From the NCBI RefSeq assembly GCF_037935975.1, contig NZ_CP149817.1, positions 4,216,001 through 4,280,000 on the forward strand: DNA of 64,000 nt. The letters are read 5' to 3'. The notes under the pieces were generated by a model that made no database searches, had not been told where the DNA came from, and worked only from the letters and a program-made list of their open reading frames with translations. Shown here one piece after another: positions 19,963 to 23,297 of the stretch; positions within the stretch are counted from its first letter, which is position 1, and every line of letters begins with the position of its first letter. Both the position numbers and the translations under genes were made by a program. The stretch comes from Teredinibacter turnerae. Lineage in GTDB: Bacteria; Pseudomonadota; Gammaproteobacteria; Pseudomonadales; Cellvibrionaceae.

Positions 19963-20022
19963 ATACACTCGAAGAACCTTTTCCCCGCGGGACTAGTCAA
20001 AACCTCGAGCTCCAAGATTAAC

Positions 20023-20082: not shown

Positions 20083-20361
20083 ATGAAAAATATGAATAAA
20101 TCCGTTGTAATTTCCAGCGCAATCGCCGCTGGCGTGATGATGGCGACAGCAGGAACCGGCGCACATGCAGCTAAGCCCACGATGGAAAAGTGCTACGGTA
20201 TTGTCAAAGCGGGTAAAAACGACTGTGCTATTGCCAGCCAGGGAACGAGCTGTGCAGGACAGGCCAAAAAAGACTCTATCGGCGACGCCTGGATTTATGT
20301 CCCCAAAGGCAAATGCGACGCGATTGTCGGCGGTAGCTTAACCCCCAAAAAAGACAAGTAA
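20083..20361 (+). CDS. bufA1: Bufferin-type precursor peptide BufA1 (DUF2282)
   Basis: 92-residue secreted peptide. The signal peptide (residues 1 to about 30, with a [13 protein letters not shown] core) directs it to the periplasm; the mature part carries four cysteines, C37, C48, C57 and C78, in the DUF2282 pattern (MEKCYG, KNDC, GTSC, PKGKC). In the bufferin family, MNIO enzymes modify such cysteines and the product binds copper. ATG at 20083 follows AGGAG with a 6-base spacing. First gene of the bufA-bufB-bufC-doxX operon. The specific modification and metal here are by family inference. Confidence 0.88.
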
Positions 20362-20370
20362 CCCGAGCAT

Positions 20371-20399
20371 CGGCCCCGCGGCCCAGTCTGGCGGGGCCG
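20371..20399 (+). other. Strong GC hairpin between bufA and bufB
   Basis: Perfect 9-bp stem CGGCCCCGC/GCGGGGCCG with an 11-base loop and no T-tract. It is placed right after the precursor gene and 13 bases before the enzyme gene; it could hold the precursor mRNA level above that of the enzyme by partial termination or 3'-end protection. Confidence 0.7.
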
Positions 20400-20412
20400 G
20401 TCGACCACCAGT

Positions 20413-21258
20413 ATGACCGCCAACCTCCCCCGCCGCGCAGGCATTGGACTTAAACCCGTCCACTATCACGAAATCCTGGATCACCGGCCAGACATCGGCT
20501 GGTTCGAGATTCACCCGGAAAATTACCTCTGCGATGGTGGACCGCCGCACCGTTACCTGGAAGCGATAGCGGCACACTACCCGATTTCCTTTCACGGTGT
20601 AGGCATGTCGCTTGGCAGTGCGGAGGGCGTATGCAACACGCATTTGAAAGCGATTCGCCAGTTGTGTGATCGATATCAACCGGCCCAGTTTTCGGAACAC
20701 CTCGCCTGGAGCAGGAACGACAGCCGTTTTTTGAACGACCTGCTACCCCTACCCTACACGATCGAATCGCTTGACGTTGTGAGCTCGAATATACAGCAGG
20801 TTCAGGACACCTTACAGCGGCAGGTTTTTATAGAGAACCCATCAAGCTACATCGATTTTAAACAGTCAGATTACAGCGAACCCGAATTTCTAAACCGCCT
20901 TGCCAGACAAACAGGGTGTGGTTTACTCCTCGACATCAACAATATCTACGTTTCAGCCTGTAACAATGGTTTCGACCCTTACCGCTATATCGACTCAGTA
21001 GACTTGGCCTGCGTGGGCGAAATTCACCTGGCAGGTCACCGTATTGAATCCCTGCCGAACGGACAAAAACTGCGCCTGGACGACCACGGTTCGGAGATCT
21101 GTAAGCCTGTGTGGCAGCTCTACAAACACGCGAACACCAAATTGGCGGCTCACCTTCCCGTATTAATCGAGTGGGACAACAACATTCCCTCGCTTGCGAC
21201 ACTTATAGCTGAGGCCGCTGAAGCCGACCGCATACAACAGGAATATTGCAAGACGTGA
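20413..21258 (+). CDS. bufB: MNIO-family oxidative enzyme BufB (DUF692)
   Basis: 281-residue TIM-barrel enzyme of the DUF692 multinuclear non-heme iron family, which modifies cysteines of the partner peptide with O2. Visible conserved blocks include HYHEIL, WFEIHPENYL, GVGMSLGS, EHLAW, IENPSSYI, LLDINNIYVSA, EIHLAGH, DDHGSE and LIEWDNNIPS, supplying the His/Glu/Asp metal ligands. It is cytosolic and requires the precursor before export. It overlaps the next gene by 4 bases (GTGA). Confidence 0.9.
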   Translation: MTANLPRRAGIGLKPVHYHEILDHRPDIGWFEIHPENYLCDGGPPHRYLEAIAAHYPISFHGVGMSLGSAEGVCNTHLKAIRQLCDRYQPAQFSEHLAWSRNDSRFLNDLLPLPYTIESLDVVSSNIQQVQDTLQRQVFIENPSSYIDFKQSDYSEPEFLNRLARQTGCGLLLDINNIYVSACNNGFDPYRYIDSVDLACVGEIHLAGHRIESLPNGQKLRLDDHGSEICKPVWQLYKHANTKLAAHLPVLIEWDNNIPSLATLIAEAAEADRIQQEYCKT

Positions 21259-22037
21259 CGCTGCAGGAATTTCAGAAGCAATTCACCGCCCAAGTCCTCG
21301 AAAATAATCATGCATTTGGTGTCGAAAGCGCACTGTCTGATTATCCTCGAGAAGAATTCGAGGCTCGCTTGGCAATCTACAGGAACAACGTGTTTCGCGG
21401 CCTTATCGACACCCTCGGCTCGCACTTTCCCGCAACGAAAAACCTGGTGGGAGACACCTACTTTGACAGTATAGGAAAAGCCTATCTGGAAAAAAACCCT
21501 CCTCAAAGCGCTGCCAGCACAGCATTCGGCGAAACCTTTCCGGACTTTATAAATGCATTTCCGCCCCTTGAGACCTTGCCCTATTTAACCGATGTTGCAC
21601 GCCTGGATTGGGCCTACCACAGTGCTTACCACGCTCGAGAAGCGGTAGCACTCGAACCCACCGCATTTCAATTGATTCATCCGGATGCGCTAGGCAAAGC
21701 CAAATTTGAACTTCATCCCAGCTGTAGAATGGTTCAATCAGATTACGCGGTCTTCACCCTGTGGGAGTTTGCGCGGGATTCAGTAAAAAAGACACTCGAA
21801 GACGACATTGAGCAAGCACAAGCCGCCCTCGTTCTGCGGCCAGACGCAGAAGTGAATGTGTACCATTTAACCGCAGGTCTCACGGCATTTTTTGACCGCT
21901 TGATTGGCGGGGCGGCGCTTTCTCAGGCGCTGACTGCTGGCATCGACCAAAGTGACGAATTTAACCCGAGCGAGGCAGTAGCATTTTTTGTAAACTCGCG
22001 TATTGTTCACCGCATTGACGAGCCAACTCACTTATGA
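21255..22037 (+). CDS. bufC: BufC-like partner protein (DUF2063, putative DNA-binding-domain family)
   Basis: 260-residue protein of the DUF2063 family, found with DUF692 enzymes and thought to help recognise or hold the precursor peptide. The N-terminal LQEFQKQFTAQVL and IYRNNVFRGLIDTLGSHFP blocks are typical, and a second domain with a winged-helix-like fold (about 150-260) follows. The GTG at 21255 gives a 4-base overlap with bufB; a TTG at 21246 is the alternative. Its stop overlaps the start of the doxX gene, so all three are translationally coupled. DNA binding is not supported by anything visible. Confidence 0.82.
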   Translation: MTLQEFQKQFTAQVLENNHAFGVESALSDYPREEFEARLAIYRNNVFRGLIDTLGSHFPATKNLVGDTYFDSIGKAYLEKNPPQSAASTAFGETFPDFINAFPPLETLPYLTDVARLDWAYHSAYHAREAVALEPTAFQLIHPDALGKAKFELHPSCRMVQSDYAVFTLWEFARDSVKKTLEDDIEQAQAALVLRPDAEVNVYHLTAGLTAFFDRLIGGAALSQALTAGIDQSDEFNPSEAVAFFVNSRIVHRIDEPTHL

Positions 22038-22495
22038 ATATTTTTCTACTCACAGATCGCTACGCCAAAAAGTTAGCTGACGTCATTCCCGAGGCGGTAC
22101 TGCAACTGGCAGCACGCGTATCCATGTTTATGGTGTTCTGGTTTTCGGCACAAACCAAACTTGCAGGAAGCGAAGTACTCGGGCAAAAGTGGATGTTTTG
22201 GAATTTATCCAGTAGCACATTTGCGCTGTTTGAGTACGACTACGCGATTCCTTTACTGCCCCCTGTTATCGCGGCCTATCTAGCAACAATTAGCGAGTTT
22301 TTCTTTTCTCTTTTTATATTGTGCGGCTTGCTAACCAGACTTAGCGCCCTGGCTCTTCTGATAATCACATTGGTTATCCAAATCTTCGTTTACCCTTCGT
22401 CCTGGCCGCAACATTTACTGTGGGGTACCGCATTACTGTATTTGCTCAGCGCGGGCGCCGGCGCTGTTTCTGTAGATCGATTAATTGGGCGATAG
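22034..22495 (+). CDS. DoxX-family inner-membrane protein
   Basis: 153 residues with about four membrane helices and the DoxX-type start (AARVSMFMVFWFSAQTKL, GLLTRLSALAL). DoxX proteins are frequent companions of DUF692/DUF2282 operons, and redox or metal-handling roles are proposed for the family. Its ATG overlaps the bufC stop (ATGA). It is the last gene of the operon and is followed by the shared terminator at 22620-22670. Confidence 0.82.
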   Translation: MNIFLLTDRYAKKLADVIPEAVLQLAARVSMFMVFWFSAQTKLAGSEVLGQKWMFWNLSSSTFALFEYDYAIPLLPPVIAAYLATISEFFFSLFILCGLLTRLSALALLIITLVIQIFVYPSSWPQHLLWGTALLYLLSAGAGAVSVDRLIGR

Positions 22496-22619
22496 ATTAG
22501 TAGAATATGCCAACGCAGAATGCCTGTTTCCAGCGCTTGCAATTTCCGCAGCCGCAGACAGGCTTCGTTCAGCCTAACGAGTCGACGAAGTGAAAACGTT
22601 TAGCGAATTAGCCCCTGTA

Positions 22620-22670
22620 CTCAAGACACAAAAAAAGCCGGTAAATTACCGGCTTTTTTTGTGTCTTGAG
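22620..22670. terminator. 51-bp perfect palindrome, bidirectional terminator
   Basis: A 25-base arm, one central A, and the exact complementary 25-base arm. The inner part is GCCGGTAA/TTACCGGC with A7 and T7 tracts (a bidirectional intrinsic terminator); the pairing continues nine bases beyond the tracts (CTCAAGACAC and GTGTCTTGAG). It lies between the convergent bufferin operon and the outer-membrane barrel gene. Confidence 0.95.
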
Positions 22671-22682
22671 TTCCCGCAGATT

Positions 22683-23297
22683 TTAAAAAACATAACCCGT
22701 ACTAATTTGTGCGCTACTCTCAACATCTCCAGTCAAATAACTCTGGTAACTTAACGCGATCATCCAATGCTCCCAGGGTGTAAACCTGAGGCGTGGCGCA
22801 ACGAAAAGGCCGGAATCTATCTCAATATCCTCAGAATAACAGTCAGAACAATAACTGATGGACCGCTCCGAAGAAAGCACCATCTCATAACCCGCGAGAA
22901 GATCCAGACTCACCGTTGGCGCGAGGTCAACACCGTACCCCAACTCGCCGTATAAGTTATACGCGGTTGCTGATGAACTGGAATTGCGCTCGTTACCACC
23001 CCAACTTGATTCAGTCAGCTGCTCAAAGGCCTCATTGTCCGAGTAATCGTATAAAGAGATACCTGCGCCAACAATCAAATTGCTTCGGTAACGTCCTTCC
23101 CAGCCCGCCACTACGTACAATGCAGAGTCGTCTACGCCTTCTCGAGCAGCTACCTCGCTGTCAAAAGATACCTGGCCAATAGACAACAGCACGCCATTTT
23201 CTTTTAAATAGCTCTCGTTCGGCGCTGCCAGAGCCTCATCTGCGTGAAGTGAATTCGCCGCAACCAGCAGCGCAATGAAACTCAACGTCTTTGTCAT
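22683..23297 (-). CDS. Small outer-membrane beta-barrel protein, function unknown
   Basis: 204 residues with a signal peptide (LSFIALLVAANSLHA, cut near 19). The rest is made of alternating strands (LIVGAGISLYDY, TVSLDLLAGYEM, HWMIALSYQSYL) and ends in YVF with a C-terminal Phe, the usual BAM recognition end; this is a likely eight-stranded barrel of the OmpW/OprF-N-like size class. A CSDC pair in a loop may form a disulfide or bind metal. It converges on the bufferin operon, but no functional link is shown. GGAG lies before the ATG. Confidence 0.65.
   Translation of the reverse strand: MTKTLSFIALLVAANSLHADEALAAPNESYLKENGVLLSIGQVSFDSEVAAREGVDDSALYVVAGWEGRYRSNLIVGAGISLYDYSDNEAFEQLTESSWGGNERNSSSSATAYNLYGELGYGVDLAPTVSLDLLAGYEMVLSSERSISYCSDCYSEDIEIDSGLFVAPRLRFTPWEHWMIALSYQSYLTGDVESSAQISTGYVF

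Follow-up and report, generated by a model that had tools for sequence, protein, structure and literature searches.

Bufferins are peptides in which cysteines are converted to thiooxazoles; they sequester copper in the periplasm and are reported to improve growth under copper stress (PMC12452194). The core of a bufferin cluster is a set of four genes, for the precursor, an MNIO enzyme, a DUF2063 protein and a DoxX protein, and the DUF2063 proteins are described as partners of the MNIO in peptide modification. In Buf1, whose DUF2282 precursor has four conserved cysteines, the central cysteines are modified and the outer two are joined in a disulphide (PMC12452194). Copper and gold both induce the gigPABT operon of Cupriavidus metallidurans, whose part in copper resistance is small (PMC10304878). 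The GIG operon of Legionella pneumophila likewise responds to gold and copper (PMC5413113). In Caulobacter, chromate, dichromate and cadmium induce those genes of such operons that depend on sigmaF, which uses the promoter form GTAACC-N16-CGAA (PMC3511200). DoxX clusters are also under ECF sigma factors elsewhere, SigE in Neisseria and RpoE2 in Haemophilus (PMC7907618). A 2026 paper groups the products of such operons as captophorins (PMC13097082).

Two further systems share part of this machinery. The mmr cluster of the marine bacterium Microbulbifer has an MNIO and a DUF2063 protein and makes bulbicupramide, a copper-binding peptide to which thiooxazoles are tentatively assigned; its precursor carries EGKCG repeats, and the main text mentions neither DUF2282 nor DoxX (PMC12538549). 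The product of this EGKCG-type cluster was not detected when copper was added (PMC12538549), so induction by copper cannot be assumed. The Hvf operon of Haemophilus influenzae, which makes oxazolin, also encodes an MNIO, a DUF2063-type partner and the DoxX-like HvfX (PMC13419390), and the DoxX cluster of this organism is the one controlled by an ECF sigma factor (PMC7907618). The Hvf precursor is again built of EGKCG repeats.

Here we describe an operon of the Buf1 type in Teredinibacter turnerae. Its four open reading frames lie one after another on the forward strand at positions 20083-22495 of the 64,000-nucleotide stretch of DNA that was analysed (the window), and in profile searches each protein scores above the curated Pfam cut-off for its family. 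bufA (20083-20361) encodes the Buf1 precursor of 92 amino acids (PF10048, DUF2282; 89.2 bits, cut-off 22.4). bufB (20413-21258) encodes the MNIO maturase of 281 amino acids (PF05114, MbnB_TglH_ChrH/DUF692; 347.2 bits, cut-off 25). bufC, which starts at a GTG at 21255 or a TTG at 21246 and ends at 22037, encodes the partner protein, with DUF2063 and an RRE-like part (PF09836; 78.9 bits, cut-off 27.2). doxX (22034-22495) encodes a DoxX-family protein of 153 amino acids, similar to GigT and HvfX (PF07681; 54.9 bits, cut-off 23.6). The original prediction had named these four families at this place and had proposed a Pfam search of the small protein against DUF2282; both the gene set and the identity of the small protein are borne out. 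It had also called the genes translationally coupled. This holds for the two downstream junctions: bufB and bufC overlap by four bases (GTGA) if the GTG is the start, or by 13 nt if the TTG is, and bufC and doxX overlap by four bases (ATGA). It does not hold for bufA and bufB, which are 51 nt apart, with a possible stem-loop in the gap.

The families and their order are those of gigPABT and the Legionella operon (PMC10304878, PMC5413113), of Caulobacter CC3254-3257 (PMC3511200) and of the published bufferin core, so DoxX is an expected member. The DoxX partner, which the original prediction had left open, thus has its placement answered in print (PMC12452194). The surroundings differ: in Cupriavidus the ECF sigma/anti-sigma pair rpoQ-rsqA divergently adjoins gig (PMC10304878), whereas the neighbours in the window are pgi, a beta-barrel gene and a phosphomannomutase gene. 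An assignment to the Hvf/oxazolin type was considered and rejected: a search of the BufA sequence found no EGKCG, BufB scores 230 bits against the NCBIfam HvfB model (cut-off 360) and BufC 32 bits against HvfC (cut-off 142). The DoxX protein is also below the cut-off of the HvfX family (34.8 against 80 bits).

BufA has a basic start, a hydrophobic stretch and an AHA site at residues 27-29, as judged by inspection of the sequence, and its sole NCBIfam match is a weak one to the BufA2 model (19.8 bits, cut-off 60). Its cysteines stand at C37, C48, C57 and C78, where they had been predicted, with a spacing of 11-9-21. All four columns are kept in 104/104 compared precursors, a count that is valid only for precursors like the two BufA queries because sequences with more cysteines were filtered out. 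The first and second cysteines are 11 residues apart and the third and fourth 21 apart in every row, the central spacing ranges from 7 to 9, and a fifth cysteine occurs once among the 104.

The comparison began with 113 loci, and the 104 rows were picked by similarity to the BufA of the window or of a second operon in the same genome, duplicates included. Nine loci (L073, L075, L086, L088, L112, L118, L119, L134 and L135) were dropped for want of a bufA match or of an adjacent pair on one strand. Two of these, L118 and L119, have DUF2282-like reading frames with more than four cysteines upstream of MNIO genes; they carry KGHNDCK-type motifs, in one case in repeated units, and apparently represent another precursor subtype. 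Nor are the 104 rows independent: L122 is nearly identical to the window, each of the pairs L109/L138 and L110/L139 represents a single place, L024/L136 are very probably one contig, and several rows from Thalassospira and from Thiodiazotropha are close. One locus, L011 (record CAMDWI010000023.1), comes from a metagenome bin titled Klebsiella pneumoniae; its precursor resembles that of another such bin (L010), and the title may be a misassignment.

BufB scores 372.4 bits against the NCBIfam model for this very enzyme (NF050167, MNIO_BufB; cut-off 310). Residues H61, H96, E141, D174, N177, H205, D223, H225 and E253 are kept in 104/104 rows, and the window's BufB agrees with the consensus at every position conserved in at least 93% of them. 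In an alignment to 3bww, read by eye, N177 falls on N175, and D223 and H225 on D241 and H243. HvfB is 72% identical to 3bww, and a preprint reports its residues N175, D242 and H244 to be the predicted third-iron (site-3) residues, essential for function (PMC13419390). N177, D223 and H225 of BufB presumably correspond to these three.

The partner protein is recognized more readily by its predicted fold. A sequence profile of BufC searched against solved structures found nothing relevant up to E = 1 and missed both TglI and NGO1945. An AlphaFold2 model built from 19 sequences (pLDDT 88.5) matched, in a Foldseek search with E up to 0.001, the solved structures of TglI (8hci, 8hi7) and NGO1945 (3dee), with TglI the best. 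As modelled, then, BufC has a fold that resembles TglI and NGO1945, both MNIO-type partners.

Gene families, gene order, the kept cysteines and enzyme residues and the BufB equivalog score support the predicted match to the bufferin operons, and the modelled partner fold agrees with it. We are highly confident that this is an intact, ordinary Buf1 bufferin operon, a confidence that applies to its membership in the operon type. From the studied relatives we infer the following course of events. BufA would be made as a Sec-type precursor, and in the cytoplasm BufC, through its DUF2063 and RRE parts, would present it to the iron enzyme BufB. BufB would oxidize the two central cysteines, C48 and C57, to 5-thiooxazoles; after export, C37 and C78 would be joined in a disulphide, and the mature peptide would bind excess copper in the periplasm. 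DoxX would serve as a membrane partner, perhaps a redox-related one.

How widely is the operon kept? Loci were chosen solely for a match to the MNIO, and a tblastn hit anywhere in the locus (E up to 1e-3) was scored as presence of a gene. The complete set of four was present in 18/20 loci of the relatives set, for which the 20 best-scoring were taken from the 64 other genomes that match the window's MNIO. Of the loci from named genomes, for which the best 80 of 85 relatives were kept, 67/80 have the complete set. Among the 13 named loci in which no doxX was found, at least four (L028, L059, L070 and L083) end shortly past the enzyme or partner gene. Since these loci were picked by the MNIO match, the co-occurrence of all four genes is not a chance line-up. 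In the genus, 8/8 genomes have both a gene for DUF2282 and one for an MNIO, and the seven genus loci fetched besides the window all have the four genes. Across 77 genomes, including the window's own, DUF2282 was found in 35 and a match to the window's MNIO in 65, so that MNIO genes are commoner in this set than the DUF2282 precursor type.

The position of the operon is also kept. In the window, pgi lies on one side; on the other, past a beta-barrel gene, lie phosphomannomutase and galU-like genes. Between pgi and the phosphomannomutase and galU-like genes is also where the operon lies in 10/20 fetched relatives, among them 6/7 genus loci, and in L012, a MAG of Saccharophagus. The neighbourhood shared with Saccharophagus is in keeping with Cellvibrionaceae as the probable family of this lineage. 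This fixed position beside pgi favours vertical descent, and the operon looks old and vertically kept in the family. The outer-membrane beta-barrel gene (22683-23297, reverse strand), convergent with doxX, was matched in 1/7 fetched genus loci and therefore looks variable within an otherwise fixed neighbourhood.

Two loci show the enzyme and its partner by themselves. In genome G033 (L135, 4246-5936), bufB and bufC adjoin pgi with no match to bufA or doxX in the locus and none to DUF2282 in the genome, and the MNIO and its partner are thus without the expected substrate. In the draft genome G028 (L134, 5038-6730), the only MNIO match and its partner likewise have no bufA or doxX match beside them, and other contigs carry three DUF2282 genes. 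It is possible that this MNIO acts at a distance on those precursors.

A second Buf1 operon, likewise complete with DUF2282, MNIO, DUF2063 and DoxX genes, lies elsewhere in the window's own genome (L004, 6066-8662; near C1:1293149). Its bufA and bufB are 12 nt apart, its precursor has a GTHSCAGQ motif unlike that of the window, and its MNIO reaches 301 with the BufB model, below the cut-off of 310. Upstream lie genes of the carboxymuconolactone decarboxylase family and with a YHS domain. A third and distant MNIO gene (L005, 6346-7916; near C1:12435) is followed by a gene for a protein of 210 amino acids that has no Pfam or NCBIfam match at E up to 0.001. No Cys-rich secreted reading frame was recognized by eye beside this MNIO, which may act on another substrate. 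One example of a PME-type 2 partner, a protein of 215 amino acids, is from Cellvibrio (PMC12452194), and the 210-residue protein possibly resembles partners of that type.

What controls the operon? The regions upstream of bufA in relatives have the sequence GAACTT-N16-TC in common, though the surrounding DNA hardly aligns. We take this form to be typical of RpoE-type promoters. The motif was first spotted by eye in an alignment of 14 upstream sequences and then counted on 19 loci (the window and relatives) that include those 14. The strict form is found upstream of bufA in 9/19 loci, compared with a mean of 0.09 and a maximum of 2 in 200 shuffles, and in 6/1393 control tiles of 300 nt from the same 19 loci. 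By origin, the hits are 7/14 in the discovery sequences and 2/5 in those held out (L129 and L131 have it; L132, L136 and L138 do not). A looser form, in which GAACCT and spacers of 15-17 are allowed, occurs in 11/19 loci (shuffle mean 0.48, maximum 3). All nine strict hits are within the window's family, and the order-level loci have 0/3. Among the other 85 loci there are three, against a shuffle mean of 0.4 and a maximum of 3, and hence no clear signal of the motif outside the relatives set.

The window is one of the 19 loci but lacks the strict motif. Its candidate RpoE-type promoter, at 19974-19998 on the forward strand, is a degenerate copy, GAACCT-N17-TC, that departs from the family form and recurs in the nearest relative (L122). 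By itself this copy is not significant, with four matches in the 64 kb against 6.2 expected. The 300-nt region upstream of the second operon does not have the GAACTT motif. The genome does encode RpoE (TIGR02939; 329.9 bits, cut-off 236), adjoining RseA, and GAACTT-N16-TC is present upstream of rpoE itself; in the rpoE locus (L140) the looser pattern occurs twice, with 0.34 expected. From these upstream sequences it is probable that bufA of this genus is transcribed by means of an RpoE-type sigma factor.

Control by sigmaF and NrsF, as in Caulobacter, was considered as well and rejected: a search of the window's genome gave 0 matches to PF06532, and the Caulobacter control was positive. The Caulobacter promoter, GTAACC-N16-CGAA (PMC3511200), also differs from the GAACTT-N16-TC of the relatives. 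Scans around the operon for sigma-70 promoters and simple terminators gave no excess over shuffles. In a literature search that combined bufferin or DUF2282 with RpoE or AlgU, the matches listed contained no assignment of a Buf1 operon to canonical RpoE.

Two stem-loops may bear on expression. One possible stem-loop follows the bufA stop codon (20364-20403, forward strand), in the 51-nt gap, which folds with an MFE of -24.2 kcal/mol. In the window it is not significant by itself: 50/200 shuffles of the 60 nt after the stop fold as well, and positions 20350-20440 folded alone give z -0.77 (38/200). The same is true of the nearest relative (26/200). Across the relatives set, 14/19 loci have 60 nt after bufA that at most 10/200 shuffles equal, compared with 1/19 for the coding control. 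The corresponding figures for the other loci are 18/47 where the gap is at least 40 nt (control 3/47) and 9/38 where it is shorter (control 1/38) and the 60 nt tested extend into bufB. The second operon shows no such signal after its bufA (z 0.3). A stem-loop in this place may favour the mRNA of the precursor over that of the enzyme. The other, a symmetric stem-loop with runs of A and T in its arms, lies past doxX at 22620-22670 and is visible by eye in the sequence; a single fold of 22610-22680 gives an MFE of -43.9 kcal/mol. It is likely the terminator after the operon, although it was not among the hits of the simple terminator scan.

What is the peptide for? We think it probable that copper is its main job. 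Bufferins are reported to chelate copper and to enhance growth under copper stress (PMC12452194), and gig contributes weakly to copper resistance (PMC10304878). The same modified peptide could instead serve mainly against another envelope stress, such as gold, chromate, cadmium, hypochlorite or thiol oxidation, with copper binding secondary. We consider this rather unlikely, although it is compatible with membership in Buf1 and has several observations in its favour: the response of the Caulobacter genes to chromate, dichromate and cadmium (PMC3511200), that of the Legionella and Cupriavidus operons to gold besides copper (PMC5413113, PMC10304878), the control of the H. influenzae DoxX cluster by RpoE2, a sigma factor of the hypochlorite response (PMC7907618), and the RpoE-type motif upstream of bufA in relatives.

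That the operon is a relic whose expression or activity has been lost seems very improbable. Its promoter-like box is a degenerate one that lacks significance by itself, and a related cluster in Microbulbifer was silent under the conditions tested (PMC12538549), but all four frames are open, the conserved enzyme residues are in place, and all four genes are kept in 8/8 genomes of the genus. Early annotation suggests yet another reading, in which the DUF2063 protein regulates by binding DNA and the operon serves for regulation or to protect DNA. Pfam describes DUF2063 as a 'Putative DNA-binding domain', the paper on the NGO1945 structure points the same way (PMC2954202), and a DNA-protection role has been floated for GigA and GigB (PMC10304878). 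Against this, the best match of the BufC model is TglI, a known MNIO partner, and DUF2063 proteins are described as acting with MNIOs in peptide modification (PMC12452194); we regard a DNA-binding role as extremely improbable.

We suggest, tentatively and at somewhat short of even chances, that in this family the bufferin operon belongs to the canonical RpoE/RseA envelope-stress regulon, in which vertical descent has fixed it, and has no dedicated sigma factor of its own. The peptide would then serve against envelope stress in general, and copper would be one trigger among several.

The operon type is already in print, and what this locus adds to it is small: a probable RpoE-type promoter, a stem-loop and a fixed position beside pgi. 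It is a clear further case, in one gammaproteobacterial family, of the recently described modified peptides that handle copper. It also suggests a connection, open to test, with the canonical RpoE response to envelope stress, as against the sigma factors so far known for such operons.
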